Origin: Streptomyces gobiensis
Lineage (GTDB): Bacteria; Actinomycetota; Actinomycetes; Streptomycetales; Streptomycetaceae
Direction of reading: 5' to 3'
Assembly: GCF_021216675.1 (NCBI RefSeq)
Contig: NZ_CP086120.1
Location: 2,338,501 to 2,402,500 of the forward strand
Length of the DNA stretch: 64,000 nt
Shown: piece after piece, positions 25,531 to 45,565 of the stretch
Layout: each line of letters begins with the position of its first letter
Position numbering within the stretch: position 1 is the stretch's first letter
Notes under the pieces: model-generated
Told to the model about the DNA's origin: nothing
The model's database searches: none
Seen by the model: the letters and a program-made list of their open reading frames with translations, nothing else
Program-made: the position numbers and the translations under genes

Positions 25531-25571
25531 CCGCACAGCGGGGCCGGATCACTCCAGGGAGAGCGGTATAG

Positions 25572-25608
25572 TTCTTTATTGACGATCGCAAGAAATAAAG
25601 AATACTCT
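25572..25608 (+). promoter_or_regulatory. Promoter with palindrome before the carboxylesterase gene
   Basis: TTGACG (25579) and TACTCT (25603) are 18 nt apart. They overlap the inverted repeat TTCTTTATT / AATAAAGAA (25572-25602), which would let a dimeric regulator block the promoter. The AT content is far above the surroundings. The -35 and -10 spacing equals that of the two aromatic-cluster promoters. Confidence 0.6.
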
Positions 25609-25726: not shown

Positions 25727-27271
25727 ATGGCCGTTACGCAAGGTCGGGTCCCGCCCACCGTGGAGCTGACCGCCGGTCGGCTGCGAGGTGACACTGAGGG
25801 CGGTGTCGCCGTGTTTAAGGGAGTGCCCTACGCCGCACCCCCGGTCGGTGCACTGAGGTGGCGCCCGGCGCAGACCCACGCGGGCTGGAGCGGCACGCGG
25901 GACGCGACCGCCGCCGGGCCGAGTGCACCGCAGATGTTCATGGAGGGCGGCGACCCCGTACTCGGCGGCCACGGCTTCCCGCCCTTCGACGAAGACTGTC
26001 TGACGCTCAATGTGTGGACACCGGCCGTCGACGCCGCCAAGCGGCCGGTGATGGTCTGGATCCATGGCGGTGGCTTCGTCTCCGGGTCCGGCTCGCTCCC
26101 CAACTACTCCGGTGAGACCTTCGCTCGCAACGGTGACCTGGTCGTCGTCACCATCAACTACCGCATCGGCCCGCTCGGTTACCTCTGCTTCGGTGAAGAA
26201 GGCGGCGGGGAAGCGGCAACAGGAAACCTCTGGCTCACCGACCAGCTCGCGGCGCTGCGCTGGGTATACGACAACATCGCGCACTTTGGCGGAGATCCGC
26301 ACAGCGTTACGGTCGCCGGCCAGTCGGGCGGCGCCATATCCACCGCGGCGCTGGCCGGGCACCCCGAAGCCCAAGGGCTGTTCCAGCGCGCCATCCTGCA
26401 GAGCCCGCCCTTCGGCCTGGACATCCCGACCCGCGCCAAGTATCTCCAGCGGACCGCCGCCTATCTGGAGATCACCGGCGCGAAGGACCTCGATGAACTC
26501 CGCGGCCTGCCCTGGTCACGGTTGACCGAGGCGGCCGGAGAGCTGTTCGGCCACACCATGCGATGGGGTTACTGGCCCACACCGTTCCTCCCGGTACGCG
26601 ACGACATCACGCTGCTCCGCCACCCCGCCGACACACTCCTCCACGGCGCCGCGACCGATATAGACGTCCTGATCGGCTGGACCCGTGAGGAAGCCAACTT
26701 CGGCTTCGCCCTGGACAAGGGATACGCGGCGGCGACCAGGGATCAAGTGATCAACAGGATCGCGGACACCTTCAAGGCCGATGCCGTCGACGTGTACGCC
26801 GCGTACGAGCGGACCCGGCCCGGCGCCCGGCCCGCGGACGTGCTCATGGACCTGATCACGGATGAACTGTTCCGCGTGCCCAGCCTGGAGCTGGCCGAGT
26901 CCCGGGCAGCTCTCGGACGTCCGGTCTGGGCCTACCAGTTTGACTTCCCCACACCTGCGCTGGGCGGCAGGCTCGCCGCCGCCCACTGCCTGGAACTGCC
27001 CTTCGTCTTCGACAACTTCGACAACTGGTCGCACGCACCCTTCCTCGAAGGAATCGAGTCCACCGCCCGGGACGGCCTTGCACAGGCCATGCACCGGGCA
27101 TGGATCTCCTTCGTCCGCACCGGCGATCCCAACCACCATGCCCTGCCGATCTGGGAGCGGTACGACGGGAAGACCCGCGCCACCATGCGCTTCGACTCCG
27201 TCACCACCACCGTCAGCGACCTCGCCGGGCATTCACGCCGACTGCACCACCGGGCATCCAAGCAGGCATAG
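25727..27271 (+). CDS. Type-B carboxylesterase (p-nitrobenzyl-esterase-like)
   Basis: A 514-residue alpha/beta hydrolase that cleaves carboxylic esters. The oxyanion hole is WIHGGGFVSGSG, the nucleophile Ser lies in VAGQSGGAISTAAL, and the acid and His are expected in DVLIGWTREEANFG and AAHCLELPFVFDN. No signal peptide is visible, so it is intracellular. The ATG at 25727 follows GGAAGGGAAATC. The gene stands between PAP2 and GH3 and has its own promoter-operator. An aryl or acyl ester of a glycoside is a reasonable substrate guess. Confidence 0.9.
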   Translation: MAVTQGRVPPTVELTAGRLRGDTEGGVAVFKGVPYAAPPVGALRWRPAQTHAGWSGTRDATAAGPSAPQMFMEGGDPVLGGHGFPPFDEDCLTLNVWTPAVDAAKRPVMVWIHGGGFVSGSGSLPNYSGETFARNGDLVVVTINYRIGPLGYLCFGEEGGGEAATGNLWLTDQLAALRWVYDNIAHFGGDPHSVTVAGQSGGAISTAALAGHPEAQGLFQRAILQSPPFGLDIPTRAKYLQRTAAYLEITGAKDLDELRGLPWSRLTEAAGELFGHTMRWGYWPTPFLPVRDDITLLRHPADTLLHGAATDIDVLIGWTREEANFGFALDKGYAAATRDQVINRIADTFKADAVDVYAAYERTRPGARPADVLMDLITDELFRVPSLELAESRAALGRPVWAYQFDFPTPALGGRLAAAHCLELPFVFDNFDNWSHAPFLEGIESTARDGLAQAMHRAWISFVRTGDPNHHALPIWERYDGKTRATMRFDSVTTTVSDLAGHSRRLHHRASKQA

Positions 27272-27322: not shown

Positions 27323-27336
27323 GTTACACGTGCAAT
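27323..27336. promoter_or_regulatory. LacI-type operator O3 (GH3 gene)
   Basis: GTTACACGTGCAAT matches 12 of 14 bases of the perfect palindrome and lies 68 nt before the GH3 start codon. Confidence 0.7.
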
Positions 27337-27404
27337 GTGCTCCAACAATCCTCCGGCCCGCTGCGAGCGGGAGCCGACCTACGCTACGGAATGGAACGAA
27401 CCCC

Positions 27405-29282
27405 ATGACCAAGACCCCGGCGGCCCGGCCGCGCACGCTCACCGCCCCCGACGGCACCGCCTTCCGTGACCTGAACGGCAACGGCGTCATGGAGCCCTAC
27501 GAGAACCCCCGACTGCCGGTCGGCGAGCGCGTCGCCGACCTCCTGCGGCGCATGACGCTGGAAGAGAAAACGGGTCTGCTCTTCCAAACCATGATCACCA
27601 TCAACGCCGATGGCTCCCTGGTCGAGCCGGAGCCGGGAGCCCCGGACGACGACCCGATGTGTGCCTCCACCTCCGCCATGGTGACGGGCAAGCTCATGAA
27701 CCACTTCAACCTGTTCGGAGCCGCCGCCCCGCGCCGCATGGCCGAGTGGAACAACCGCCTGCAGGACCTGGCCGCAACGACCCGCCTGGGCATTCCGGTG
27801 ACCATCTCGACCGATCCCCGCCACGGCTTCGTGGACAACCTGGCCGCCAGCGTGCACACCGAAGGCTTCTCACTCTGGCCCGAACCACCGGGCCTGGCCG
27901 CCATCGGCGACGAGGAACTCGTGCGCCGGCACGCCGACATCGTCCGCCGCGAATATCTCGCCGTCGGTATCCGCCTGGCCCTTCATCCCATGGCCGATCT
28001 GGCCACCGAGCCCCGCTGGCCGCGCGTGCTGGGCACCTTCGGCTCCGACGCCGAAGTAGCCGCCCGCATGGTCGGCGCGTACATCCGCGGCCTCCAGGGC
28101 GAGATCCTCGGGACCAGCAGCATCTCGGCGATGACCAAGCACTTCCCCGGCGCCGGCCCACAGCTGGGGGGCGAGGACGCCCACTTCCCCTACGGCCGCG
28201 AACAGGTCTACCCCGGCGATAACTTCGACTATCACCTGATCCCCTTCGAAGCCGCGTTCGCGGCGGGGACCTCGCAGATCATGCCCTACTACGCCATGCC
28301 CGTCGGCACGCCCTACGAAGAGATCGGCTTCGGCTTCAACAAGGGAATCATCACCGGGCTGCTGCGGGAGAAATACGGCTTCGACGGCATCGTCTGCACC
28401 GACTGGGGCCTGGTCACCGACGCGCAGATCTTCGGGGCGCCCTTCCCCGCACGCGCCTGGGGAGCCGAGGAACTGGACCGGCTCACCCGCGTGGAACGCA
28501 TCATCGACGCCGGCGCCGACCAGCTCGGCGGCGAGGCGGCGCCCGAGCTCATCGTGGAACTCGTACGCAGCGGCAGGGTGACGACCGAGCGCATCGACGC
28601 CTCGGTGGCACGCCTGCTGCGGGAGAAGTTCATCCTCGGTCTGTTCGACAATCCGTATGTGGACCCCGACGCCGCCGCACGGATCTGCGGCAACCGCGAG
28701 TTCACCGCGGCCGGACTCGCCGCGCAGAGCCGCTCGATCACCATCCTCAAGGACCGCCCTCAGGACGCGCCGACGCCCGTGCTGCCCCTCGCGTCCGGCA
28801 TTCGGGTCTATGTCCAGGGCATCGATCCCGGTATCGCCGGGCAGTACGCCACCGTGGTGGCCACCCCCGAGGAGGCCGATGTCGCGCTGGTCCGCGTCGC
28901 CGCACCCTGCGACGAGCGGACCGAGGGCATCGAGACCTTCTTCCGTGCCGGCCGGCTCCACTTCACCGAGGACGAACTGCGCCCCGTCCTCGATACAGCC
29001 GCGGCCGTCCCCACCGTGGTCGACATCTTCCTCGACCGTCCCGCGGTCATACCGGAGATCGCTGAGCATTCGGCGGTGCTGGTGGCCAACTACGGTGCCT
29101 CGGACACCGCGTTGCTGGACGTGCTCTTCGGCCGGGCGGAGGCCGAAGGGCGTCTGCCCTTTGAACTCTCCCGTTCGACAGAGAGCGTCGCCGCCGGTCA
29201 TGAGGACGTGCCCAACGACTCGGGTGACCCCCTCTTCCCCTACGGCCACGGCCTGCGTCTGACATCACTCACTCAGCGCTGA
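27405..29282 (+). CDS. Glycoside hydrolase family 3 enzyme (beta-glucosidase type)
   Basis: A 625-residue GH3 protein with an N-terminal TIM barrel (RMTLEEKTGLLFQTM, TISTDPRHGF, AMTKHFPGAGPQ) and the catalytic nucleophile Asp in GIVCTDWGLVTDA. The C-terminal alpha/beta sandwich ends PFELSRSTESV and FPYGHGL. It has no signal peptide, so it acts on imported glycosides. The terminal fibronectin-III domain of larger GH3 enzymes is missing. The start ATG at 27405 follows GGAACGAACCCC. A LacI-type operator precedes it and a strong terminator follows. Substrate unknown. Confidence 0.9.
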   Translation: MTKTPAARPRTLTAPDGTAFRDLNGNGVMEPYENPRLPVGERVADLLRRMTLEEKTGLLFQTMITINADGSLVEPEPGAPDDDPMCASTSAMVTGKLMNHFNLFGAAAPRRMAEWNNRLQDLAATTRLGIPVTISTDPRHGFVDNLAASVHTEGFSLWPEPPGLAAIGDEELVRRHADIVRREYLAVGIRLALHPMADLATEPRWPRVLGTFGSDAEVAARMVGAYIRGLQGEILGTSSISAMTKHFPGAGPQLGGEDAHFPYGREQVYPGDNFDYHLIPFEAAFAAGTSQIMPYYAMPVGTPYEEIGFGFNKGIITGLLREKYGFDGIVCTDWGLVTDAQIFGAPFPARAWGAEELDRLTRVERIIDAGADQLGGEAAPELIVELVRSGRVTTERIDASVARLLREKFILGLFDNPYVDPDAAARICGNREFTAAGLAAQSRSITILKDRPQDAPTPVLPLASGIRVYVQGIDPGIAGQYATVVATPEEADVALVRVAAPCDERTEGIETFFRAGRLHFTEDELRPVLDTAAAVPTVVDIFLDRPAVIPEIAEHSAVLVANYGASDTALLDVLFGRAEAEGRLPFELSRSTESVAAGHEDVPNDSGDPLFPYGHGLRLTSLTQR

Positions 29283-29627: not shown

Positions 29628-30635
29628 ATGGTCAAAGATCCAACCGCCCCGGCGTCGATCACCAGCGCGGACGTGGCCCGCCTGGCAGGGGTGTCACGGG
29701 CCACCGTGTCCTTCGTGCTCAACGACACCCAGTCGCACCGGGTCAGCGCGAGTACGCGTGCGCGCGTGCTGGCCGCGGCCGAACAGTTGGGTTACGTCCC
29801 GCACGCCGCCGCCCGGTCTCTGCGAGCCGGCCACAGCAACCTGGTGCTGATGCCCACATCCGTCTCGGCGATCGGCCGTCTGCTCAGCGGCTGGCTGGAC
29901 GATCTGCACAGCGAGCTTGAGCGCCACGGATACACCACCGTGCTGCATGCCGGCCGGTTCCCCGACCCGGTCACCGCCGCCCGGGCCTGGGCCGAGCTCC
30001 GGCCCGCGGCGGTGTTTGTCCTGGAGAGCGATGGCTTCACCGCGCAGGCGGGCGATGTCCTGCGGCGTGCGGGTGTCCGTGGCCTGCTTGCCTTCGCCGC
30101 CCGGCCGGTGGAGGGCGTCCACACCATCGCACTCGACCACTCACGCATCGGCGCGGTCGCCATGGAACACCTCATCTCCCGTGGGCGGCGCAGCATCGGC
30201 GTGGTCATGCCGCGAGAGCGCGGCCTCGATGTTTTTGCCCAGCCGCGTCTGGCCGGCGCGCAGGGTGTCGCCGCACGCAGCATGGCGACCGTCACCGCGG
30301 TGGAGATGGCGTACACCCAGGAGTCCGCTGTTGAGTTGGCCAAGCGCTGGTCGAGCCTGGGCCTGGACGGGGTATTCGCCTACAACGACGAGTACGCGGC
30401 CCTGCTGCTGCACGCGCTTCAGGACGAGGGCATCTCCGTCCCGGACGAGGTGGCCATTGTCGGCTCTGATGACCTTGTGCTGTCCGCTGTGCAGCGGCCC
30501 TCGCTCACGACCATCAGTCTGGACCTGCCCTCCCCCGCACACATCGCTGACACCCTGCACGAGTTGATCGAGCGTGGCGCAGCGCCCGCGGTGCCCGGTA
30601 TGGAACCCGTTCTCGTCCACCGGCAGTCCTCTTGA
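29628..30635 (+). CDS. LacI-family regulator of the glycoside/ester module
   Basis: A 335-residue regulator with an N-terminal helix-turn-helix (ITSADVARLAGVSRATVSFV), a hinge helix (VLAAAEQLGYVPHAAARSLR) and a C-terminal effector domain (FAYNDEYAALLLHAL, VGSDDLVLSAVQRPSLTTI). It is the only DNA-binding regulator inside the module whose family recognises CG-centred palindromes like GTTACACGTGTAAC, so I assign it as the binder of O1-O5. The ATG follows AAGGA at good distance. The inducer is probably a glycoside or its sugar. Confidence 0.9.
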   Translation: MVKDPTAPASITSADVARLAGVSRATVSFVLNDTQSHRVSASTRARVLAAAEQLGYVPHAAARSLRAGHSNLVLMPTSVSAIGRLLSGWLDDLHSELERHGYTTVLHAGRFPDPVTAARAWAELRPAAVFVLESDGFTAQAGDVLRRAGVRGLLAFAARPVEGVHTIALDHSRIGAVAMEHLISRGRRSIGVVMPRERGLDVFAQPRLAGAQGVAARSMATVTAVEMAYTQESAVELAKRWSSLGLDGVFAYNDEYAALLLHALQDEGISVPDEVAIVGSDDLVLSAVQRPSLTTISLDLPSPAHIADTLHELIERGAAPAVPGMEPVLVHRQSS

Positions 30636-30688
30636 GCGATCTTTCTGAGCCGGATCATGGTCACTCAACGATCTGCGGGTGCCTGCGG

Positions 30689-31420
30689 TTAGTCCGCAGG
30701 GGGCGTGGCCTCGGACGATGTTGTCGGTCGGCTGCCTTCTCTCGTCAGCCGGTGAGCGAAGACCCACCACAGAACTAGCGCGGTGCCCGCGCCGACCATG
30801 GCGCCCGCCAGCGTGTCGCTGAGCCAGTGCGCATGGAGCCAGCTTCGGCTCCACATCATCGCCAAGGTGATCAGCGTGCCGAACAGCCACCAGGCCCGTC
30901 GGCGCGCTGCCGGAATGAGCAGAGCGCCGACGATCACCACGAGGAGCGCCGTTCCGGCAACGTGTCCGGAGGGGAAGGAGCCGTGGTCCACCCGGACCAG
31001 TGGGTTCTCCGGGCGAGGCCGGTCGACAAGGTGCTTGAGGGCCAGTACGACGAGCACGTTCCCCGCCAGGTATGTGGTGAGCAGGTAGAGCAGAGACCAC
31101 CAGCGCTTCCGCGTGATGAAGAAGATCAGCAGGGCGACGGGAACCACCGCTCCGGGAGGCCCGCCGACCCAGTTGAGTATGGCGGCCATGGCCGCGTAGA
31201 GACCGTCGTGCGGGCCTCCCATCCAGAGCAGCCAGCGCTCGTCCAGGTCTTGGAAGGGCGGTCGCTCGGGACGGGCATGGACGACGAGGGCCAGCACAGC
31301 GGTGGCCAGGACGAAGACCAGTCCGAGGGGAAGCATCCCCGATCGCGGTGGAGCGGGGGTGGTACGGCGGTGCCGAGGGGGCGCCGGGGTGTTGGGAACA
31401 GCGGCCGAATTGCCGGTCAT
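30689..31420 (-). CDS. PAP2-family membrane phosphatase (copy 2)
   Basis: A 243-residue membrane phosphatase with a complete PAP2 signature: KHLVDRPRP, FPSGHVAG, and SRSWLHAHWLSD. Six transmembrane segments follow a Pro-rich start. It resembles the gene at 24811-25530 along its whole length (FQDLDERW, WLHAHWLSDT, MMWSR), but keeps the catalytic His of motif 2 that copy 1 has lost. Start ATG at 31420 with AGAGG upstream. It faces the lacI gene, with stop codons 54 nt apart. Confidence 0.88.
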   Translation of the reverse strand: MTGNSAAVPNTPAPPRHRRTTPAPPRSGMLPLGLVFVLATAVLALVVHARPERPPFQDLDERWLLWMGGPHDGLYAAMAAILNWVGGPPGAVVPVALLIFFITRKRWWSLLYLLTTYLAGNVLVVLALKHLVDRPRPENPLVRVDHGSFPSGHVAGTALLVVIVGALLIPAARRRAWWLFGTLITLAMMWSRSWLHAHWLSDTLAGAMVGAGTALVLWWVFAHRLTREGSRPTTSSEATPPAD

Positions 31421-31558
31421 AAGGACCTCTCACGGTCAGGCGCTCGCCGGGCCAGTGTGATGAGCAGGGCGGCGGACTCGCCGGTGCGAGGCCGACTAGG
31501 GGCACGGGGCGCCATCGACAGCACCCCGTGCGGGGGAGGGTCAGCGGTGTGGCGCCGG

Positions 31559-32497
31559 TCAGACGCGCAGGTGGCGGGCGAGGAAGGCGACGCTCTCGGC
31601 CACGATAGGTGTCACGTCCGGGACGCCGAGGAAGATGTGGTCGGCGCCGTCCACGGGCTGCAGCGTGACCTCGCCGCCGACGCGCTCGAGTGCTTCGGCG
31701 AGGACTTCGCTCTGGCTGTACGGCACGAGGCTGTCCGACGTTCCGTGAATCAGCAGGAACGGGGGCGGAGTCGCGGTGCCCGCGTAAGTGACGGGACTGG
31801 CGGCCCGGGCCAGTTCCGGCTGCTGGTCGGCGGTGCCGCCCAGCAGTGCGGTAAACGGATTGGGGTACTCCATCCCCGACGGAGGCGGGGGCAGAGCATG
31901 TGAGAGCAGCGAGCTCAGCTCGGACACCCCGTACCAGTCGACGACGGCCTGGACGGTGCTGTCCTCGTCACATATCCCTACGCCGCCTTCCAGGGCCGGG
32001 CCCTCGGGGCCGTCAGGGCTGACGAGTCCCGCGAGTGCGGCCAGGTGGCCGCCGGCTGACTCGCCCCAGACGCCGATCCGGTCCTTGTCGATGCCGAAGC
32101 TGTCGGCGAATCGCCGCAGGTAGCGGAGTGCGGCTTTCACGTCGTGCAGCTGAGCCGGGAACGGCGCCTCAAGGCTGTGCCGGTAGTCGACGCAGACGAG
32201 GGCGAGTCCGGCCTGCAGGACCGAGCCGTGCAGCAGATCGACGGGAATGGTCGGCGGGGGATAACGCCGGTCGCCCTCCAGCCAGCCCCCGCCGTGGATC
32301 CACACGACGACCGGCACTGGTCCGTCGGCCGCCGGTACATGGACGTCGAGCAGACGAGGCCGGTACCCGGGTGTGGTCGCGTACGTGGCCCCGTCGAAGC
32401 GGCGCACACCGTCCGGGCTGACCAGGGGTGGCGGGGGAGCAAGGAAGGGCGGCGGCGGCCACCCCAAGTCGAGCTGGGCCGGAAGCGATTGCGTCAT
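31559..32497 (-). CDS. Alpha/beta hydrolase (acyl esterase, lipase/BD-FAE-like)
   Basis: A 312-residue esterase. The HGGG oxyanion motif is WIHGGGWLEGDRRY, the nucleophile Ser lies in VWGESAGGHLAAL, the acid in LIHGTSDSLVPYS and the His in VDGADHIFLG. It has no signal peptide. The ATG at 32497 follows a GGCGG-type site; the upstream extension is Cys-rich and non-homologous. The perfect LacI-type palindrome O5 is 112 nt upstream, making this a regulon member. Probably removes acyl groups from the imported compound. Confidence 0.88.
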   Translation of the reverse strand: MTQSLPAQLDLGWPPPPFLAPPPPLVSPDGVRRFDGATYATTPGYRPRLLDVHVPAADGPVPVVVWIHGGGWLEGDRRYPPPTIPVDLLHGSVLQAGLALVCVDYRHSLEAPFPAQLHDVKAALRYLRRFADSFGIDKDRIGVWGESAGGHLAALAGLVSPDGPEGPALEGGVGICDEDSTVQAVVDWYGVSELSSLLSHALPPPPSGMEYPNPFTALLGGTADQQPELARAASPVTYAGTATPPPFLLIHGTSDSLVPYSQSEVLAEALERVGGEVTLQPVDGADHIFLGVPDVTPIVAESVAFLARHLRV

Positions 32498-32608
32498 GTC
32501 CGCCTCTTTCTGATCGGCGTAGATCCGGTGATGGGTGACGGCGTGGCTCCGGAACCTCGCAACGTATGTCCGAAATGCCTTGCACTCACCCGGGGAGGTG
32601 CCTAGGAT

Positions 32609-32622
32609 GTTACACGTGTAAC
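32609..32622. promoter_or_regulatory. LacI-type operator O5 (perfect palindrome)
   Basis: GTTACACGTGTAAC is a perfect 14-bp palindrome between the hydrolase gene and the ATPase-like regulator gene. It is the best site of the family and defines the consensus. Confidence 0.75.
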
Positions 32623-32733
32623 AATCACCCCGCGACACAATGTGCGCTGAATATAGGGACTCTGCACAGCTGGTCTTCCGACTGGTTACACGAGGATCTA
32701 GGCGTCGTCGCCTTCCCCTGCCGGGAGCCCGTC

Positions 32734-33216
32734 ATGCTCACCGCCACCCCTTCCTCAGTCCAGCCCGCCTCCGCCTCCCGTACCTGGACACCCCCGCAGT
32801 CCGCCCCGACCCACGACCGCTCCTTCGTCCACTGGACACTCAGGCCGACCGTCGCCGCGGTCCCGAACATCCGAGCGCGTGTGCGTGCCGTTCTTGAGGA
32901 CTGGCAGATCGCCCCCACCCTCACGGACATGCTGCTCCTGGCCATCAGCGAACTGGTCTCCAATGCTGTGCGGCACGCCGGAGCCGTCACCGACCGACTG
33001 CGTACCACCGTCACCCTCGGTGGAGGGTGGCTACAGCTTGAGGTCGCTGACGGCGATCCCTCCCTGCCTCGCGTCTGCCTAAAGGCCGGCCCGGAGGCGG
33101 AAAGCGGTCGCGGCCTGATGATCATCGGTGTCCTGGCCGCCGAGCTGAGCGGCGAGATGGTCGCGGTCCCGCGCGGCTCCGGCAAGGTCGTCAAGGTCCG
33201 CGTTCCCGCAGCCTGA
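32734..33216 (+). CDS. RsbW-like ATP-binding regulatory protein
   Basis: A 160-residue HATPase_c protein of the small serine-kinase/anti-sigma type abundant in Streptomyces. The N-box is LAISELVSNAVRHAG and the G-boxes are LEVADGDPSLP and GRGLMIIGVLA. An N-terminal Ser/Thr/Pro stretch of about 35 residues is non-conserved. No sigma factor or anti-sigma antagonist gene is adjacent, so the partner is unknown. ATG at 32734 follows CGGGAG. Confidence 0.85.
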   Translation: MLTATPSSVQPASASRTWTPPQSAPTHDRSFVHWTLRPTVAAVPNIRARVRAVLEDWQIAPTLTDMLLLAISELVSNAVRHAGAVTDRLRTTVTLGGGWLQLEVADGDPSLPRVCLKAGPEAESGRGLMIIGVLAAELSGEMVAVPRGSGKVVKVRVPAA

Positions 33217-33341
33217 ACGGCCTTTCTCGCCGCCCGGCTCCGCCGAAAGCCGACCGTACCCACAGGGACCCGGCCGTACCGGCCCATGCCCGCACACCCT
33301 CGCCGTGGTGCACCGTCAACAAAGATTCGTATCGCGAAATA

Positions 33342-33370
33342 TTGACCGTCGTCAGATAAACGAGATACTT
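33342..33370 (+). promoter_or_regulatory. Aromatic-cluster promoter P1 with TCGT-N7-ACGA operator
   Basis: TTGACC (33342) and the -10-like ATACTT region are separated by about 18 nt that hold TCGTCAGATAAACGA (33349-33363). The arrangement is nearly identical to P2 at 35646. It is the likely target of the PaaX-family repressor encoded at the end of the cluster. Confidence 0.6.
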
Positions 33371-33409
33371 ACCCCACTCTCCTGCTGCCCCGAGATTGAG
33401 GTGCGTCCC

Positions 33410-35035
33410 ATGGAGCTCTCCCCGTCCGCACATGTGGACACGTTCTGTCGTGACCGGCTCCCACCCTTCCCCCTCTGGCCCGAACTGCACTTCGAACTGC
33501 CGGAGTTGGACTATCCGGATCGGCTCAACTGCGCCCAGCGGCTACTCGATGACGCCGTCGAGCGCTGGGGCGCGGACCGCCCCTGTCTGTTGACCCCCAC
33601 GGAGCGGTGGACCTACGGCGAACTGCTGCACCGCGCCAACCAAGTGGCTCAGGTGATCACCGAGGACTTCGGCATCCAGCCCGGGAACCGCGTCCTGCTG
33701 CGGGGCCCCAACAACCCCTGGCTGGTCGCCGCCTGGTTCGGTGTGCTCAAGGCCGGCGGCGTGGCCGTCACCACGATGCCGCTGCTGCGTGCCGCGGAAC
33801 TCGCGCAACTGCACGACGCCAGCCTCCCGGTCGTCGCAGTGTGCGATCACCGCTACACGGACGAACTCGAAGCCGCGGACACCCCCGGCCTGGCCGTGCT
33901 GACCTACGGCGGTCACGGTGCGCAGGACCTGACGCGGCGCTGCGCGGTCAAGGACGGCAGGTTCTCCAACGTCACCACGGCCGCCGACGACGTCGCCCTG
34001 ATCGCGTTCACCTCCGGCACGACAGGGCGCCCCAAGGCGACCATGCACTTCCACCGGGACGTACTGGCCAACGCCGACACCTTCTCCCGGTATGTCCTCA
34101 AGCCCCGGCAGGACGACGTATTCACCGGCACGCCGCCGCTCGCCTTCACCTTCGGGCTCGGTGGTCTGGTGGTCTTCCCGCTGCACACCGGGGCGGCGAC
34201 CCTGCTGATCGAGCAGGCCCCGCCGGAGCAACTGGCCGACCTCGTCGCGGAACACGGCGTCACCGTGCTGTTCACCGCTCCCACGGGCTACCGGGCGATC
34301 ATGGCTGCCGGAGCGGTGGACCGCCTGGCGGGCCTGCGCCGGTGCGTGTCCGCCGGAGAGGCGCTCCCCGCGCAGGTGTGGGAGGAATTCCACGCGGCCA
34401 CCGGGCTGCGCATCATCGACGGCATCGGTGCCACCGAGATGCTCCATGTGTTCATCTCCGCCGCCGACGACGACATACGTCCGGGGTCCACCGGCAAACC
34501 TGTCCCCGGATACCGGGCGATGGTGGTGAACGAGGCGGGCGAGTCCGTCCCCGACGGGGAGCCGGGCCTCCTTGCCGTCACCGGTCCCACCGGCTGCCGC
34601 TATCTGGCGGATCCGCGCCAGACGACGTATGTCAAGGACGGCTGGAACATCACAGGCGACACCTATATACGCGACCAGGACGGCTACTTCTGGTACGTGG
34701 CCCGCAGCGACGACATGATCGTCTCCTCCGGGTACAACATCGCCGGCCCCGAGGTCGAGAAGGCGCTCGTCACCCACCCCTATGTCGCGGACTGCGGCGT
34801 CGTCGGTGCGCCGGACGACAAGCGCGGAATGCTCGTCAAGGCGTACGTGGTACTGCGCGCCGACGTCGCGCCCGACGAGACGACCGTCAAGGAACTCCAG
34901 AATCACGTCAAGCAGACCATCGCGCCCTACAAGTACCCCCGCGCCGTCGAGTTCGTCACCGAGCTGCCGCGCACCAGCAACGGAAAGCTCCAGCGCGGCG
35001 AACTGCGCAAGCGAGCCCACGGCGCGGCCGAGTAG
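33410..35035 (+). CDS. Aryl-CoA ligase (salicylate/benzoate-CoA-ligase type)
   Basis: Activates an aromatic acid to its CoA thioester with ATP. The 541-residue adenylate-forming enzyme has the P-loop-like FTSGTTGRPKATMHFHRD, the substrate-domain GATEMLHVF, the hinge motif WYVARSDDMIVSSGYNIAGP and the C-terminal catalytic Lys in SNGKLQRGEL. It is of the benzoate/2-aminobenzoate-CoA-ligase group. Because the cluster goes on to gentisate, salicylate is the most likely substrate. The ATG at 33410 lies 73 nt after a regulated promoter. Confidence 0.88.
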   Translation: MELSPSAHVDTFCRDRLPPFPLWPELHFELPELDYPDRLNCAQRLLDDAVERWGADRPCLLTPTERWTYGELLHRANQVAQVITEDFGIQPGNRVLLRGPNNPWLVAAWFGVLKAGGVAVTTMPLLRAAELAQLHDASLPVVAVCDHRYTDELEAADTPGLAVLTYGGHGAQDLTRRCAVKDGRFSNVTTAADDVALIAFTSGTTGRPKATMHFHRDVLANADTFSRYVLKPRQDDVFTGTPPLAFTFGLGGLVVFPLHTGAATLLIEQAPPEQLADLVAEHGVTVLFTAPTGYRAIMAAGAVDRLAGLRRCVSAGEALPAQVWEEFHAATGLRIIDGIGATEMLHVFISAADDDIRPGSTGKPVPGYRAMVVNEAGESVPDGEPGLLAVTGPTGCRYLADPRQTTYVKDGWNITGDTYIRDQDGYFWYVARSDDMIVSSGYNIAGPEVEKALVTHPYVADCGVVGAPDDKRGMLVKAYVVLRADVAPDETTVKELQNHVKQTIAPYKYPRAVEFVTELPRTSNGKLQRGELRKRAHGAAE

Positions 35036-35108
35036 ATCCGCTGCCGCACCGGCCTCACCACCACCCATCCCGCGTCGGCAGCTACCCGGCCGGACGAAAG
35101 GCGCCACC

Positions 35109-35603
35109 ATGGACACTCCCAGCCCGCAGCGGGCATCCTCCCCGACGGGCAGCTGCGCCGCCGGATGCGCGGAAGCCCTCGCGCAGAGCCTGCCCAGCGT
35201 CGTCATCGAGCGTCGGGTCGAGTGGCCCGACACCGACGCCGCCGGTCACTACCACCACTCCACCGTGGTGCGCTGGGTCGAGGCGGCCGAGGCCGTCCTG
35301 CTGCGGCGCCTGGGACTGGCGCATCTTTTCGGAAGCATCCCGCGCGTCCACTTCGAGGCCGACTATCGCGAGCGGCTGTGGTTCGGGGAGATCGTTCGCA
35401 CCGAACTGCGCGTCACCAAGGTCGGGACCGCTTCCCTTCACTACGCCTTCACCGTCCGCGGTCAGGGCGGCGAGGCCGCGGCCACCGGCCGTATGACGAT
35501 CGCCCACTCCGCCGCCCGCGCCACCGGCTCCACGCCTTGGCCCGACGAGGTGCGCGAAGTTCTGGCCAAGGCGGGCCCACAGGCGCCCGAACTCTTCGCC
35601 TGA
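35109..35603 (+). CDS. Hotdog-fold acyl-CoA thioesterase (4-HBT family)
   Basis: A 164-residue hotdog protein. The 4-hydroxybenzoyl-CoA-thioesterase-type motif VEWPDTDAAGHYHHSTVVRW supplies the catalytic Asp, and VHFEADYRERLWFGE is the typical second strand and helix. Placed between the ligase and the CoA-ester hydroxylase, it most likely releases gentisate from gentisyl-CoA. It lies 73 nt after the ligase gene and before the second promoter. ATG at 35109 behind GAAAGG. Confidence 0.85.
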   Translation: MDTPSPQRASSPTGSCAAGCAEALAQSLPSVVIERRVEWPDTDAAGHYHHSTVVRWVEAAEAVLLRRLGLAHLFGSIPRVHFEADYRERLWFGEIVRTELRVTKVGTASLHYAFTVRGQGGEAAATGRMTIAHSAARATGSTPWPDEVREVLAKAGPQAPELFA

Positions 35604-35645
35604 TCTGGCGCGTCGATGCACATCAGCCTTGCATATATTGTTTTC

Positions 35646-35675
35646 TTGACGGTCGTAGAATTTACGACATACATT
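35646..35675 (+). promoter_or_regulatory. Aromatic-cluster promoter P2 with TCGT-N7-ACGA operator
   Basis: TTGACG (35646) and TACATT (35670) are 18 nt apart, and the spacer holds GTCGTA-GAATT-TACGAC, a perfect palindrome. The shared backbone with P1 suggests common control. It drives the monooxygenase-to-PaaX genes. Confidence 0.65.
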
Positions 35676-35701
35676 GTCCCAGGAACCACTAGGAGGACGC
35701 C

Positions 35702-38098
35702 GTGCGCGTAGCAGTCATCGGAGGAGGGCCTGGCGGGCTGTACTTCGCGGCCCTGGCCAAGCAGCTCTCCCCGCGATGGGACATCACCGTCTGGGAACGC
35801 AACGCGGCCGACGACACCTTCGGATTCGGTGTGGTGTTCTCCGACGAGACGCTCGACGGCATCGCGCAGGCCGACCCGGAGATCTTCGACGCGATGTCGG
35901 CGGAATTCGCCCGCTGGAGCGACATCGACGTCTGCTACAAGGGCCAGGTTCTCACCTCCGGCGGCCACGGCTTCGCAGCCCTGGGACGCAAGCGCCTGCT
36001 GCGGATCCTGCAGGACCGCTGCGCCGCTCTGGACGTGGACGTCCGCTACCGCACCCAGGCACCACCGGTCGGTCAACTCGCTGCCGAATACGACCTGGTG
36101 GTGGCCGGTGACGGGGTACGGTCGGCAGCCCGGGACACCTACGCCGACACCTTCGTGCCGGACCTCGACGAACGGCACTGCCGTTACATGTGGCTCGCCA
36201 CGGACAAGGTCTTCGAAGCCTTCACCTTCATCGTCGCCGAGCGGGACTTCGGCACCCTTCAGGTCCACGCCTACCCGTTCGACGACACACGCAGCACCTT
36301 CATCGTGGAGATCGACGAGGGCTCCTGGCGGCGCGCGGGCTTCGACACGTTCGCGGCCCGCGACTACCCGCCCGGGACCAGCGACGAGGACAGCATCCGG
36401 CTGTGCGAGGAGATACTCGCCGACCACCTCGACGGCCACCGTCTGATCCCCAACGGCTCCAAGTGGATCCGCTTCACCACCGTGCGCAACCAGACCTGGC
36501 GCCACGACAATGTGGTGCTGCTGGGGGACGCCGCCCACACCGCCCACTTCTCCATCGGCTCCGGCACCAAGCTCGCCATGGAGGACGCACTCGCCCTGGC
36601 CGCCTGCCTCCACGAACATCCCGACCTCCGCACCGCGCTCGCCGCTTACGAGGCCGAACGCAAGCCGGTCGTCGAATCCACCCAGCGTGCCGCCCAGGCC
36701 AGCCTCGAATGGTTCGAGCACATCGGCTGCTACACCGGGCAGGAACCCCTCCAGTTCGCGTTCAACCTCCTCACCCGCAGTCGGCGCGTCACCTACGACA
36801 ACCTACGGGTCCGCGACAAGGAGTTCACAGGCGCGGTCGACACCTGGCACGCGGCGGCGGAGACATCGATCGTCCCGCCCGCCAGTGCCGCCGTACCGCC
36901 GATGTTCCGCCCCTTCCAGCTCGGCGGACTGCTTCTGCGCAACCGTGTCGTCGTGCCGCCCACCGCGCTGTACGCCGCACGCGACGGTGTCCCCGGAGAC
37001 TTCGAACTCGTGCACCTGAGCACCCAGGCCCTCGGCGGCTCCGGACTGGTCTTCGCCGGTATGACGGCCATCAGCCCCGATGCGCGCGCCACCTCCGGCT
37101 GCCCCGGCCTGTACACCGACGAGCAGGAGACCGTATGGCGGCGGATCACCGACTTCATCCACCGTCAGTCGGACACCTGTCTGGGCATCCAGCTCACCCA
37201 TGCCGGCCGCCGCGCGGCGACCAGCACGCCCTGCGCGGACGGCGAATGCGTTCCGCTCGGCGAGGGAGGATGGCCTGTGGTCGCCGCCTCCGCCCTCGCC
37301 TGGGACCCCACCAGCACGCCACCGCGCGAAGCCACCCGCGGGGACATGGACGACATCGCACAGGACTTCGTCACCGCGGCCCGCCGTGCCCACCGCGCTG
37401 GATTCGACGCGCTGGAACTGCAGTATGCCCATGGCCACTTGATGTCCGGCTTCCTGTCGCCGCTGACCAATCTGCGCACCGACTCCTACGGCGGCACCCT
37501 CGCGGGCCGGCTGCGCTTCCCGCTGGAAGTGCTGCGGGCGGTGCGTGACGTCTGGCCCTCGGGCAAGGCGCTGGTCGTCCGGATCTCGGCTACCGACTGG
37601 GCCGAGGGAGGCACCAGCGAAGCCGACGTCATCGAGATCTGCCGCGCACTCGCGGACGCCGGAGCGGACGCCGTCGACGTCTCCACCGGTGAGGTCGTCT
37701 CCCACGAGCGGCCCCGTTACGGCCGCAGTTACCAGACGCCCTACGCCGACCTGATCCGTAACGCCACCGGCATACCCACCATCGCGGTGGGCGCCATCTC
37801 CACCTACGACGACGTGAACTCGATCATCCTGGCCGGCCGGGCCGACCTGTGCGCCGTCGGCCGCGCCCAGCTGTACGACCCTCTGTGGACCCTGCATGCC
37901 GCGGCCGCCCAGAACTACACCGGGCCCGGAGCACCGTGGCCCCCGTCCTGGAAGGCGGGCAGCGGCAGGCCCCCCGGCTCCCGCACCGACCGTATCCCGC
38001 CCCGTCTCCAGCTGCTTCGCAAACCTCCCGTCCAGGTGCACCAGCGATGGCTTCCGCCCGCCGAAGGCGCTGTCCCCGCGGCGACGGCCGTCCGCTGA
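35702..38098 (+). CDS. Bifunctional salicylyl-CoA 5-hydroxylase/oxidoreductase-type flavoenzyme
   Basis: A 798-residue fusion. Residues 1-385 are an FAD monooxygenase (AVIGGGPGGLYFAALAKQL, DLVVAGDGVRSAARD, LLGDAAHTAHFSIGSGTK). Residues about 405-745 are an Old Yellow Enzyme-type FMN domain (RPFQLGGLLLRNRVVVPP, QLTHAGRRA, ALELQYAHGHLMSGFLSP, AVGAISTYDD). This layout is that of 2-aminobenzoyl-CoA monooxygenase/reductase and of SdgC, the salicylyl-CoA 5-hydroxylase of Streptomyces sp. WA46. The gentisate dioxygenase nearby favours the salicylyl-CoA assignment. The GTG at 35702 follows AGGAGG. The Pro/Arg-rich last 60 residues look dispensable. Confidence 0.88.
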   Translation: MRVAVIGGGPGGLYFAALAKQLSPRWDITVWERNAADDTFGFGVVFSDETLDGIAQADPEIFDAMSAEFARWSDIDVCYKGQVLTSGGHGFAALGRKRLLRILQDRCAALDVDVRYRTQAPPVGQLAAEYDLVVAGDGVRSAARDTYADTFVPDLDERHCRYMWLATDKVFEAFTFIVAERDFGTLQVHAYPFDDTRSTFIVEIDEGSWRRAGFDTFAARDYPPGTSDEDSIRLCEEILADHLDGHRLIPNGSKWIRFTTVRNQTWRHDNVVLLGDAAHTAHFSIGSGTKLAMEDALALAACLHEHPDLRTALAAYEAERKPVVESTQRAAQASLEWFEHIGCYTGQEPLQFAFNLLTRSRRVTYDNLRVRDKEFTGAVDTWHAAAETSIVPPASAAVPPMFRPFQLGGLLLRNRVVVPPTALYAARDGVPGDFELVHLSTQALGGSGLVFAGMTAISPDARATSGCPGLYTDEQETVWRRITDFIHRQSDTCLGIQLTHAGRRAATSTPCADGECVPLGEGGWPVVAASALAWDPTSTPPREATRGDMDDIAQDFVTAARRAHRAGFDALELQYAHGHLMSGFLSPLTNLRTDSYGGTLAGRLRFPLEVLRAVRDVWPSGKALVVRISATDWAEGGTSEADVIEICRALADAGADAVDVSTGEVVSHERPRYGRSYQTPYADLIRNATGIPTIAVGAISTYDDVNSIILAGRADLCAVGRAQLYDPLWTLHAAAAQNYTGPGAPWPPSWKAGSGRPPGSRTDRIPPRLQLLRKPPVQVHQRWLPPAEGAVPAATAVR

Positions 38099-38133
38099 CA
38101 CCGCCTGCCTGTTCCGTGTCCGAGGAGGACCTG

Positions 38134-39174
38134 ATGGAGACTCTGCCCCGCTTCACCGCCGCCGCCGTGCAAGCGGCCCCCGTCTACCTTGACGCGGCGG
38201 CAACCGTCGACAAGGCCATCGCGCTCATCCAGGAGGCGGCCGGTAACGGCGCCTCGCTGGTCGTCCTTCCTGAGGTGTTCGTCCCCGGCTATCCGTACTG
38301 GAACTGGACGATGAACCCGGTCCAGGGCTCCCCGTGGTTCGAGCGCCTTCACCGCTCGTCCATCGACGTCCCCGGACCGCACGTGGACGCGCTGCGCGCC
38401 GCGGCCCGCCAGCACGGTGTCGTCGTCGTCATCGGCGTCAACGAGCGCGCCCCGCACAGCCTCGGCGTCCTCTACAACACGCTTCTCACCATCGGCCCGG
38501 ATGGAGAACTACTCGGACTGCACCGCAAGTTGGTGCCCACATGGGCCGAAAAGCTCACCTGGACCGGCGGCGACGGCAGCTCCCTGCGCGTCCACCAGAC
38601 GCCCATCGGACCGCTCGGCGCACTCGCCTGCGGAGAGAACACCAACACGCTGGCCCGCTTCACCCTCCTCGCCCAGGGCGAACTGATCCACGCCGCAAGC
38701 TACATCGCCCTGCCGGTAGCCCCCGAGGACTACGACATGGCGGACGCCATCGCGGTCCGTACCGCCGCCCACAGCTTCGAGGGAAAGGTCTTCTCCATCG
38801 TGGCCTGTTCCACGATCTCCCCCGAGATCGTGGACACCGTCGCCGGGGACGACGAGGACGTACGACGCATGCTCGCCCGCCCCCGCAGCGCGCTGTCCGG
38901 GATCTTCGGGCCCGACGGCCGTCCTGTCACCGAACCACTGATCGACGACGAGGGCATCGTCTACGCCGAGATCGACCTGGCCAAGTGCATCCAGCCCAAG
39001 CAGATGCACGACATCGTCGGCCACTACAACCGCTTCGACGTCTTCCAGCTCCACGTCGACAACACCCCACGCGCCCCGGTGACCTTCACAGCCGACCCCA
39101 CTCTCCACCCCGCCGCCCCCACCACCGCACCCCTCTCAACCGAAAAGACCGGCACCACGAAGGAGGACACATGA
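38134..39174 (+). CDS. Nitrilase (aryl/aliphatic, C-N hydrolase branch 1)
   Basis: Hydrolyses a nitrile to the acid and ammonia. The 346-residue protein has the catalytic triad Glu in LVVLPEVFVPGYPYW, Lys in GLHRKLVPTWAEK and Cys in GALACGENTNTLA; the C-G-E-N-T-N loop marks true nitrilases rather than amidases. It starts 36 nt after the flavoenzyme gene behind GAGGAGG, and its stop overlaps the dioxygenase start (ATGA), so it is a full member of the aromatic operon. An ortho-hydroxybenzonitrile or similar aryl nitrile feeding salicylate is the obvious proposal. Confidence 0.9.
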   Translation: METLPRFTAAAVQAAPVYLDAAATVDKAIALIQEAAGNGASLVVLPEVFVPGYPYWNWTMNPVQGSPWFERLHRSSIDVPGPHVDALRAAARQHGVVVVIGVNERAPHSLGVLYNTLLTIGPDGELLGLHRKLVPTWAEKLTWTGGDGSSLRVHQTPIGPLGALACGENTNTLARFTLLAQGELIHAASYIALPVAPEDYDMADAIAVRTAAHSFEGKVFSIVACSTISPEIVDTVAGDDEDVRRMLARPRSALSGIFGPDGRPVTEPLIDDEGIVYAEIDLAKCIQPKQMHDIVGHYNRFDVFQLHVDNTPRAPVTFTADPTLHPAAPTTAPLSTEKTGTTKEDT

Positions 39175-40283
39175 CCATCGAGTACGACGACACGATCCTG
39201 GGGCGGGCCCGGGTGTCCGAAACCCCCGAACTCACCGCCTACTACGGCGAACTCACCGAACTCGAGGCCGGTGCGCTGTGGACTGTCGCCAACGACATCG
39301 AACCCTGGTATCCACAGCCGAAGTCCGTGCCGGTCCTGTGGCGCTACAACGAACTGCGGCCCCTGGTCCGCAAGGCGCTCGGTCTGGTCAAGGCAGACGA
39401 CGCCGGCCGGCGCGTGGTCATGCTCGTCAACCCCGGCCGCAAGGACGTCAGCGCCGCCGCCGGACTCCTCTACACCGGCCTGCAGATCATGGGCCCCGGC
39501 GAAGCCATGACCGCCCACCGCCACCAAGCCGCGGCCCTGCGCTTCGTCCACGAAGGCACCGGCGCCTGGACCATCGTGGACGGCCAGAAACTCAAGGTCG
39601 GCCCCCGGGACTTCGCCATCACGCCCAACGGGACCTGGCACGAACACGGCAACGAATCCGACGACGCCCCCGTCATCTGGCAGGACGGCCTCGACATCCC
39701 TCTGGTCAACGCCCTCGACGCCGGTTTCTACGAGGTCCACCCCGATCTGCACCAGACACCGGGCAAGATCATCAATTCCTCGGTCCTCACCTATGGCGCG
39801 AACCTCCTGCCCTATGGCGTGGAGAAGTGGACCAGGCCCTACTCGCCACTGCTCGCCTACCCGTGGGAGACCACCTACGAGTCCCTGCGCAACCTGGCGA
39901 AGGCCACCGAGGGATCCCCCTATGACGGCGTGATCGCGGAATACACCAACCCGGTCACCGGCGGCTCGGTCATGCCCACCATGGGCGCGCACATGCAGCT
40001 CCTGCGGCCCGGCCAAGCCACTCAGGCGCACCGCCACACCGGCTCGGTCATCTACACCGCCGCCAAGGGCCATGGCGTCTCGGTGATCGCCGGACAGCGC
40101 TTCGAATGGAAGCAGGGCGACGTCTTCTGCGTCCCGTCCTGGGCCTGGCACGAGCACCACAACCTCGCCCCGTCCGAGGACGCCTGTCTCTTCTCCTTCA
40201 ACGACTTCCCCGTGATGCGCTCGCTCGGCTTCTACCGGGAAGAGGCTTACACCGACAACGGCGGGCACCAGCCCACCGCCTAA
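39171..40283 (+). CDS. Gentisate 1,2-dioxygenase
   Basis: Cleaves gentisate (2,5-dihydroxybenzoate) between C1 and C2 to maleylpyruvate using Fe(II) and oxygen. The 370-residue bicupin has iron ligands in its first cupin (MTAHRHQAAALRFVHEG, WHEHGNE) and a second cupin with TQAHRHTGSVIY and WHEHHNL. Length and double-cupin layout fit the family. ATG at 39171, AAGGAGG upstream, 4-nt overlap with the nitrilase. Confidence 0.93.
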   Translation: MTIEYDDTILGRARVSETPELTAYYGELTELEAGALWTVANDIEPWYPQPKSVPVLWRYNELRPLVRKALGLVKADDAGRRVVMLVNPGRKDVSAAAGLLYTGLQIMGPGEAMTAHRHQAAALRFVHEGTGAWTIVDGQKLKVGPRDFAITPNGTWHEHGNESDDAPVIWQDGLDIPLVNALDAGFYEVHPDLHQTPGKIINSSVLTYGANLLPYGVEKWTRPYSPLLAYPWETTYESLRNLAKATEGSPYDGVIAEYTNPVTGGSVMPTMGAHMQLLRPGQATQAHRHTGSVIYTAAKGHGVSVIAGQRFEWKQGDVFCVPSWAWHEHHNLAPSEDACLFSFNDFPVMRSLGFYREEAYTDNGGHQPTA

Positions 40284-40415
40284 ACCGCGCCGCCGCGACG
40301 GAACGGCCGGCCCTGACACCGGTACCGGCGCGGCGGCGCATCAGCCGGGGACGGCCTCGCGCCCCGCACCGCCCCCGGCTGCCCTTCCTGCCTGCCCCAC
40401 CCACAAGGAGCACCC

Positions 40416-41321
40416 ATGCGACTGCTCACATACACCCACGACGACTCGCTCAACCGCCTGGGTGCCGAGGTCGACGGCTCGGTCGTCGACCTCGCCGCGC
40501 TCGCGGCCCACGCCGACGTCGAACTACCCAGCGACCTGCTGTCCTTCATCCAGGCAGGCACCACCGCCCATGGCACCGCGCTACGCCTGCTGGGCAGCGA
40601 CTCCGACGCCTGGCCGGACGAGGCCGTCCACCAGCTCGACGAGGTGTCGCTGCGTGCCCCGTTGCGCCCCGGGAAGATCATCGGCGTCGGGCTGAACTAC
40701 GTGGAACATGTCGAAGAGTCCAGCCGCAGCCTGGACACCGACAAGGAACTGCCCCCGCGCCCCGTGCTCTTCAGCAAGCCCGCCACCGCCGTCACCGGCC
40801 CCGGGCAGCCGATCCTGCACAACGCCGACCTGACGGCGCAGCTGGACTGGGAATGCGAACTCGCCGTCATCATCGGACGCACCGCTTTCCGCGTCACGGA
40901 GGAGGACGCCTTCGACCACGTCTTCGGCTACAGCATCATCAACGACATCAGCGCCCGCGACCAGCGCCGCTCCGGCCAGTGGTTCTTCTCCAAGGGCCAG
41001 GACTCCTACGCCCCCTTCGGCCCCGCCGTGGTCACCGCGGACGACGTACCCGACCCGATGGCGCTGGACCTGTCGCTGCGCGTCAACGGCGTGACCAAGC
41101 AGAAGTCGAACACCCGCCACATGCTCTTCCCCATCGCCCGCCTCATCGCCGACATCACCTCGGGCGTGACCCTCGAGCCCGGCGACATCATCGCCACCGG
41201 CTCTCCCTCGGGCGTCGGCGCGGGCATGGTCCCACCGGAATTCCTCACCCCCGGGGACACCGTCGAAGCCACCGTCCAAGGCATCGGCACTCTGACCAAC
41301 CCCGTGATCGACGCCCGCTGA
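40416..41321 (+). CDS. Fumarylacetoacetate-hydrolase-family maleylpyruvate/fumarylpyruvate hydrolase
   Basis: A 301-residue FAH-fold enzyme that splits the ring-cleavage product to pyruvate and a C4 diacid. Metal-binding acidic residues are in LDWECELAVIIG and YSIINDISARD, and the catalytic region KIIGVGLNYVEHVEES is typical. No glutathione- or mycothiol-dependent maleylpyruvate isomerase is encoded nearby, while a maleate isomerase follows, so direct hydrolysis of maleylpyruvate to maleate is likely. ATG behind AAGGAG. The 132 nt before it hold nothing recognisable. Confidence 0.88.
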   Translation: MRLLTYTHDDSLNRLGAEVDGSVVDLAALAAHADVELPSDLLSFIQAGTTAHGTALRLLGSDSDAWPDEAVHQLDEVSLRAPLRPGKIIGVGLNYVEHVEESSRSLDTDKELPPRPVLFSKPATAVTGPGQPILHNADLTAQLDWECELAVIIGRTAFRVTEEDAFDHVFGYSIINDISARDQRRSGQWFFSKGQDSYAPFGPAVVTADDVPDPMALDLSLRVNGVTKQKSNTRHMLFPIARLIADITSGVTLEPGDIIATGSPSGVGAGMVPPEFLTPGDTVEATVQGIGTLTNPVIDAR

Positions 41322-41370
41322 CCCCGCCCGGCCCCCAGGCCGGGCGCCCCCTAACGCAACGAGGACCCCT

Positions 41371-42147
41371 GTGTCGCACCGTACCTACCGCATCGGCCAG
41401 ATCGTGCCGAGCTCCAACGTCACCATGGAAACCGAAGTACCGGCCATCCTGCGCGCCAGGCACTCCATCGCGCCGGAACGCTTCACCTTCCACTCAAGCC
41501 GTATGCGCATGACCCACGTCACGCCCGAGCAGCTCAAGGCCATGGACGCCGACTCCGACCGGTGCGCCGTGGAACTCTCCGACGCCCACGTCGATGTGCT
41601 CGGCTACGCCTGCCTGGTGGCCATCATGAGCATGGGCCTCGGTTACCACCGCGTCTCCGAGCAACGCCTCCATACCCGAACCGTGGAGAACGGCGCCCCG
41701 GCCCCCGTCGTCACCAGCGCCGGCGCACTGGTCCACGGACTGCGCACCCTCGGCGCCAAGAAAATCGCCCTGATCGCCCCCTATATCCGCCCGCTCACCC
41801 AGACCGTCGTGGGGTACCTCACCCACGAAGGAATCGAAGTCCTCGACTACCAGGCACTGGAAATCCCCAACAACCTCGATGTCGCCGCGCACGACCCCGG
41901 CAACCTGCCCGGCCTCGCCCGCGCCCTCGACTACGCCGACGCCGACGCCGTCGTGCTCTCCGCATGCGTCCAGATGCCCTCCCTGGGAGCCATCGAAGAA
42001 GCCGAACAGCTCCTGGGCAAGCCGGTGGTATCCGCAGCTGTCTGCACCGCCCACCACATGCTGCGGGCCCTCGGCCTCCCGGCGCTGGCCCCCGGCGCCG
42101 GCCATCTGCTGTCCGGCGCGTACGCGGAGGCATCCCCCGCAACGTAG
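41371..42147 (+). CDS. Maleate cis-trans isomerase (Asp/Glu racemase superfamily)
   Basis: Converts maleate to fumarate without a cofactor. The 258-residue protein shows the family hallmarks: QIVPSSNVTMETEVP at the start, the nucleophilic Cys in VLGYACLVAIMSMG, the second Cys in VVLSACVQMPSL, and HHMLRALG at the end. Two opposing cysteines are those used by maleate isomerases. GTG start behind GAGGA. It completes a path from gentisate to fumarate and pyruvate. Confidence 0.88.
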   Translation: MSHRTYRIGQIVPSSNVTMETEVPAILRARHSIAPERFTFHSSRMRMTHVTPEQLKAMDADSDRCAVELSDAHVDVLGYACLVAIMSMGLGYHRVSEQRLHTRTVENGAPAPVVTSAGALVHGLRTLGAKKIALIAPYIRPLTQTVVGYLTHEGIEVLDYQALEIPNNLDVAAHDPGNLPGLARALDYADADAVVLSACVQMPSLGAIEEAEQLLGKPVVSAAVCTAHHMLRALGLPALAPGAGHLLSGAYAEASPAT

Positions 42148-42246
42148 CGTCGCCGGCCGGATGACTGGGACCCGGCCGAGAACCCGAGTCCCTGGCACGC
42201 ACGTACGGCTCGGTAGGATCGCCACTGCACGCTACGGAAGGCGATC

Positions 42247-45408: not shown

Positions 45409-45513
45409 GGTGCGACTCTCCCTGCGGGTGACTCGGTAGTGACCACCGAGGGTACGCCTCTACATCCATGATCTGGACTGGTTTGCCGGATAGTGAGACG
45501 GGGAGCTCAGTTT

Positions 45514-45565
45514 CCGGCCAGTCCCCGGCCAGTCCCCGGCCAGTCCCCGGTCAGTCCCCGGTCAG
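45514..45565. repeat. 11-bp tandem repeat (about 4.7 units)
   Basis: Units of CCGGCCAGTCC, the later ones CCGGTCAGTCC, run from the ilvD upstream region into the last codons of the TetR gene. The TetR stop codon lies within a unit, so unit gain or loss could alter its C-terminus. Confidence 0.8.

Follow-up and report, generated by a model that had tools for sequence, protein, structure and literature searches.

The window, the whole stretch of 64,000 nucleotides of Streptomyces gobiensis DNA that was analysed, belongs to a genome of 5.69 Mb held in one contig and carries a gene cluster that probably directs salicylate degradation through salicylyl-CoA and gentisate. The genes of the cluster, all on the forward strand, are the following:

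33410 to 35035, +: aryl-CoA ligase, the first gene after promoter P1 (best match TIGR02262, 366.7 bits against a cut-off of 375.25)
35109 to 35603, +: 4HBT-type thioesterase
35702 to 38098, +: bifunctional salicylyl-CoA 5-hydroxylase/oxidoreductase, the first gene after promoter P2 (NF006101, 1099 bits against a cut-off of 1078)
38134 to 39174, +: nitrilase-family carbon-nitrogen hydrolase
39171 to 40283, +: gentisate 1,2-dioxygenase-like cupin (TIGR02272, below cut-off)
40416 to 41321, +: FAA-hydrolase family protein, probably fumarylpyruvate hydrolase
41371 to 42147, +: Asp/Glu racemase or arylmalonate decarboxylase family protein, probably for maleylpyruvate or maleate isomerisation
42247 to 43086, +: PaaX-family regulator, predicted binder of the element described below (PF07848, PF20803, PF08223)

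The hydroxylase is the sole cluster assignment above a curated equivalog cut-off, and the salicylate/gentisate route is assigned because of this match and the company of the other genes. Each of the 12 mapped co-linear orthologues of the cluster includes the nitrilase-family gene. The PaaX, PaaX_M and PaaX_C domains of the regulator all score above the gathering threshold, and its best PDB match is 8a39, an E. coli-type PaaX entry (E 1.1e-23). Since it reaches 177.1 bits with TIGR02277, below the cut-off of 264.55, it is classed as a PaaX-family member and not as PaaX proper, the phenylacetate repressor. Directly 3′ of its gene, positions 43100 to 43350 are very rich in G+C and contain inverted repeats, perhaps forming a terminator.

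The promoters of the ligase and hydroxylase genes share a 38-bp element, a third and weaker copy of which precedes a carboxylesterase gene further upstream:

33330 to 33367, +: operator-promoter element P1, TATCGCGAAATATTGACCGTCGTCAGATAAACGAGATA, predicted operator
33330 to 33336 and 33361 to 33367, +: outer arms of P1
33342 to 33347 and 33364 to 33369, +: promoter boxes of P1, −35 TTGACC and −10-like GATACT
35634 to 35671, +: operator-promoter element P2, TATATTGTTTTCTTGACGGTCGTAGAATTTACGACATA, 5′ of the salicylyl-CoA 5-hydroxylase gene, predicted operator
35646 to 35651 and 35670 to 35675, +: promoter boxes of P2, −35 TTGACG and −10-like TACATT
25567 to 25604, +: third copy, with two mismatches to the search pattern, 5′ of the carboxylesterase gene
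25727 to 27271, +: carboxylesterase (PF00135), predicted regulon member
29628 to 30635, +: LacI-family regulator, a rival binder, between the esterase and ligase operons

In positions 30000 to 46000, P1 and P2 were the only sigma-70-like sites found, where 1.0 was expected. An earlier sequence-only reading of this DNA had pointed out that TTGAC, GTCGT, ACGA and ATAC recur at the two promoters in the same register, with TTGAC starting at 33342 and 35646, and this was reproduced. The 38-mers at 33330 to 33367 and 35634 to 35671 have 24 of their 38 bases in common; when P1 was compared with a single strand of 40 random sequences of 64 kb (first-order Markov), the best match reached 22. The consensus of the element, TRT-N3-G-N5-TTGAC-N3-CG-N9-C-N3-ATA, spans both the −35 and the −10 box at P1 and at P2, in keeping with the earlier suggestion that a protein placed there would block RNA polymerase. 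The third copy and the LacI-family gene had no place in that reading, and the search for more sites which it proposed brought up the third copy in the window as well as exact matches elsewhere in the genus. The third copy also has a 9-bp inverted repeat, TTCTTTATT/AATAAAGAA. The esterase gene adjoins a family-3 glycoside hydrolase gene (27330 to 29282) and the LacI-family gene; in Streptomyces the latter accompanies the cluster, a hint that salicylate glycosides or esters are used.

Conservation was followed across the genus in a set of 295 genomes. Of these, 19 (S. gobiensis included) encode a PaaX-family protein with at least 76% identity, the next match having at most 55%. A full co-linear cluster lies near the PaaX-family gene in 12 of the 18 other genomes. 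Lack of conservation in orthologous clusters had been named in the sequence-only reading as grounds for giving up the idea of an operator; the element stands 5′ of the ligase gene in 12/12 of these clusters and 5′ of the hydroxylase gene in 6/12, being absent from the latter position in six because the gap between the thioesterase and hydroxylase genes (24–30 bp) is too short.

The exact pattern TRTNNNGNNNNNTTGACNNNCGNNNNNNNNNCNNNATA, sought in the 295 genomes, occurred at 39 places (36 distinct sequences) in 18 genomes, while a reversed-pattern control gave 0 matches. All 18 are among the 19 genomes with the orthologous PaaX-family gene, against 0 of the 276 others (Fisher's exact p 7e-28, for genomes that are related and thus not independent events), which supports the proposed tie to the PaaX-family gene that closes the cluster. 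Every one of the 39 places lies 5′ of a ligase, hydroxylase or carboxylesterase gene or between the two genes of a divergent esterase/ABC pair, BLAST placing of the 36 distinct sequences giving 18, 5, 13 and 3 places, respectively. The sites at orthologous carboxylesterase genes thus match the pattern exactly in 13 genomes of the genus. The exception, G268, has the orthologous PaaX-family gene and the isomerase-like gene (87%) and no exact element; neither the ligase orthologue nor the LacI-family gene was found in it. A ligase orthologue is present in 18/19 PaaX genomes and is preceded by the element in 18/18, in a comparison of genomes that had been chosen by PaaX.

The ligase-promoter element is kept even in the five genomes where the PaaX-family gene is remote from the ligase gene (G012, G039, G042, G198 and G226). 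Further elements lie near the remote PaaX-family gene in G039 and G198 (loci L036 and L040), and none near the PaaX-family gene of G042, G226 and G268 (L037, L044 and L047) or of G012 (L038). In L036, L040, L177 and L185, one or two elements lie between divergent genes for an esterase and an ABC substrate-binding protein (the ABC gene being named from its translated sequence only), possibly an uptake branch of the regulon.

A wider comparison took in 80 named loci, 55 of which (L082–L136, from Streptomyces, Kitasatospora, Yinghuangia, Embleya and Streptacidiphilus) have a PaaX-family protein with at least 63% identity. The ligase gene is present together with its upstream DNA in 46 of the 55, and a site there scored at least 8.8 with the search matrix in 46/46 and at least 15 in 41/46. 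Seven of these loci (L086, L092, L093, L106, L109, L115 and L125) apparently come from genomes already represented in the matrix set. Elsewhere, a score of 10 was attained by 6 of 3959 stretches of 261 bp. The element sits 64–73 bp 5′ of the ligase start with one exception at 39 bp, and a second element scoring at least 20 precedes the hydroxylase gene in 26 of 45 loci. In the 55 loci, no element was seen 5′ of the nitrilase, dioxygenase, FAA hydrolase, isomerase-like or PaaX-family gene (highest score 2.4). Autoregulation through an element directly 5′ of the PaaX-family gene was hence discarded, such an element being absent in 55/55; as it has none of its own, this gene may be transcribed with the operon. 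Yinghuangia loci carry further sites starting ACGTTAGCGCG and then TTGAC (L114 at 827 and 18821, L117 at 1678 and L122 at 12650).

The symmetry of the element was read from 70 distinct sequences, comprising the sites scoring at least 15, both window sites and the sites at remote ligase genes. One two-fold axis, the best of all, relates the outer arms (TRT-N3-G / C-N3-AYA) as well as the inner arms (TTGAC / CGYCA). It lies 7.5 bases into TTGAC and has a complementarity of 0.533, where the axes average 0.254 (sd 0.052); in the first 20 sites, from the genus clusters, it stands at 0.562 against 0.305 for axis 15. Of the 53 sites in a set meant as held-out, six had also gone into the matrix (the two window sites, L106, L109, L115 and L125). 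The left arm, which was outside the search matrix, is conserved as well (T−11 in 68/70, T−9 in 70/70 and G−5 in 69/70), and the outer arms span 38 bp in the alignment. In a Kitasatospora-type group the left arm lies 2 bp further in, the outer arms span 36 bp and the two axes do not coincide. The symmetry shows only in the aligned set. Single sites are not significantly symmetric: in P1 and in P2, 10 of the 19 pairs are complementary, a level that 2.8% of all 38-mers of the window attain.

Taken together, the PaaX-family protein from the gene at 42247 to 43086 is likely to have its operator in the 38-bp element of P1, of P2 and, in weaker form, of 25567 to 25604, and to act through repression by occlusion and release by an aryl-CoA. 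We infer the PaaX-family protein as binder, its repressing role and its effector from sequence comparison. E. coli PaaX is described in the accessible text of PMC9493321 as repressing by steric hindrance of RNA polymerase, with phenylacetyl-CoA as the inducer. Occlusion is proposed here because the element overlaps the promoter and because of this precedent: when substrate is lacking, the regulator would occupy the element and deny RNA polymerase access to the promoters of the ligase, hydroxylase and esterase genes. Once salicylate had been converted to its CoA thioester, that aryl-CoA, probably salicylyl-CoA, would release the regulator, a step suggested by analogy with phenylacetyl-CoA and by the aryl-CoA ligase gene in the cluster. 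Such a scheme would give the salicylate pathway of Streptomyces and relatives a predicted operator and a predicted regulon comprising uptake or ester cleavage, CoA activation and 5-hydroxylation.

The strongest competitor is the LacI-family protein encoded at 29628 to 30635, which instead of PaaX could bind the element and control the esterase, ligase and hydroxylase promoters. Its orthologues (69–78% identity) occur in 18/18 element-bearing Streptomyces genomes, in 0/20 controls (six of which have relatives with 51–53%) and not in G268, and its gene adjoins the ligase and esterase operons even where the PaaX-family gene is remote; on Streptomyces alone, LacI fits as well as PaaX. The inner palindrome TTGAC-N4-GTCAA taken alone has a length that a LacI dimer could use. 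LacI operators are usually one palindrome of less than 20 bp, and the outer arms would be left unexplained. Outside that set, however, the LacI-family gene does not constantly accompany the element: 16 genomes with a PaaX-family protein of 63–74% identity keep the ligase-promoter element (scores 8.8–29.4) and have no LacI-family protein above 55%, with no match at E 1e-60 in 12 and 42–55% identity in four. Five of these 16 elements score below 15 (L117, L126, L127, L128 and L131, the last at an odd distance). Among the 19 more distant genomes with PaaX of 49–74% (20 loci) to which these 16 belong, LacI above 55% was found in 0/19 and no match at E 1e-60 in 14/19. Moreover, L036 and L040 have further elements near the PaaX-family gene and no LacI orthologue in the locus, and the PaaX systems with 48% identity have a LacI-family match nearby in 0/11 loci. 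Because the 16 related genomes keep the element without a LacI orthologue, LacI is disfavoured and regarded as an unlikely binder, and the comparison favours PaaX rather than LacI as the common factor.

The shared bases might also be nothing but a strong housekeeping promoter consensus, kept for expression and serving no operator, as TTGAC and ATA at −35/−10 distance are the most conserved columns and P1 and P2 both score as promoters. Yet the arm 5′ of the −35 box equals the promoter boxes in conservation and is a mirror image of the −10 side. Further operons show these non-promoter bases again, and the pattern is missing from all 276 genomes without this PaaX, where very many promoters must exist. 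The conservation of the upstream arm and the restriction of the pattern, genome-wide, to genomes with this PaaX led to the rejection of this very improbable explanation.

Scarcely credible is an operator consisting of the 15-bp spacer palindrome TCGT-N7-ACGA, as put forward in the sequence-only reading: CG at positions 9–10 and 20–21 is indeed nearly invariant in the 70-site alignment, but the motif's centre, axis 15, reaches 0.306 against 0.533 for axis 7.5, of 12 orthologous full clusters a single one (L031) has the exact 15-mer at its ligase promoter, and the three matches of the motif in the window, against 1.17 expected, are within chance (12 of 100 shuffles reach three). The P2 spacer GTCGTAGAATTTACGAC, described there as a perfect palindrome, has 7 of 8 complementary pairs. 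The third match, at 63820, was dropped, since the matched sequence has no TTGAC frame. What survives of that proposal is an operator over both promoters, in the form of a conserved 38-bp element spanning −35 and −10; its exact motif and its centre were wrong.

In favour of the PaaX-family protein as binder, related elements also accompany two further clades of the family, with identities of about 48% and 50%, whose genes stand beside paralogous ligase/hydroxylase genes. A search of 12 genomes at up to two mismatches gave chance matches in every genome and similar numbers with the reversed control, so only matches adjoining ligase or hydroxylase paralogues were used; these are supportive only, because the search patterns already name TAT, TGAC and ATA. 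In nine loci of the 48% clade, the ligase-side outer arms are 36 bp apart around a different inner axis (mean complementarity 0.346), six hydroxylase-side 38-bp elements have a complementarity of 0.596, and six elements of the 50% clade have 0.474. The paralogous PaaX-ligase system is widespread in Streptomyces; it occurs in S. gobiensis itself (L196, 4690000–4709500) and in L194 and L197–L204, with related elements and mostly with a hydroxylase paralogue. As this paralogous PaaX-ligase-hydroxylase system appears to use a related element, one code may predict several aromatic-acid regulons.

A frame of four boxes, TNNCG / CGNNA, 11 bp apart on each side, can be read off the alignment columns of the 70 sites. 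It is conceivable, though rather doubtful, that the operator has the form TNNCG-N6-TNNCG-N2-CGNNA-N6-CGNNA, its boxes one helical turn apart per side and occupied by a pair of PaaX dimers or by a tetramer, and that several actinobacterial PaaX clades use this frame, each with boxes of its own. If so, a specificity code for aryl-CoA repressors would be readable from sequence.

Salicylate degradation by Streptomyces sp. WA46 (sdg genes) reportedly proceeds, as here, through a salicylyl-CoA 5-hydroxylase and the gentisate route; a literature search found nothing on the regulation of these genes. The same search found no paper on PaaX control of a salicylate/gentisate pathway, which is weak evidence as most subscription papers were outside its coverage. 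PMC13186573 discusses the distribution of PaaX and PaaR, and the term 'operator' does not occur in its accessible text. PaaR, a repressor of an aryl-CoA pathway with a palindromic operator in B. cenocepacia according to the accessible text of PMC9493321, resembles the system proposed here in these respects and differs in its TetR fold, 15-bp operator and phenylacetate pathway, whereas the gene here matches PaaX domains only.

The closest known counterpart is E. coli PaaX (operators Pa, Pz and Px), which belongs to the same protein family with three Pfam domains and whose gene likewise ends the cluster of an aromatic pathway proceeding through CoA thioesters. Its site is given in the accessible text of PMC9493321 as TGATTC(N27)GAATCA, and the K-12 sites are TGATTC-N27-GAATCG at Pa and TGTTTC-N28-GAATCA on the Pz side, with an outer span of 39–40 bp. 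The statement that the Streptomyces site differs from that of E. coli therefore applies to the sequence of the arms alone (TATCGCG, generalised as TRT-N3-G / C-N3-AYA, versus TGATTC / GAATCA), the layout of two inverted arms with an outer span of about 38–40 bp, here 38 bp, being the same. Further differences are the added inner pair TTGAC/CGYCA and the salicylyl-CoA/gentisate pathway, together with a TIGR02277 score below the true-PaaX cut-off. The long two-arm operator layout would thus appear to be kept by PaaX-family regulators outside the phenylacetate pathway.
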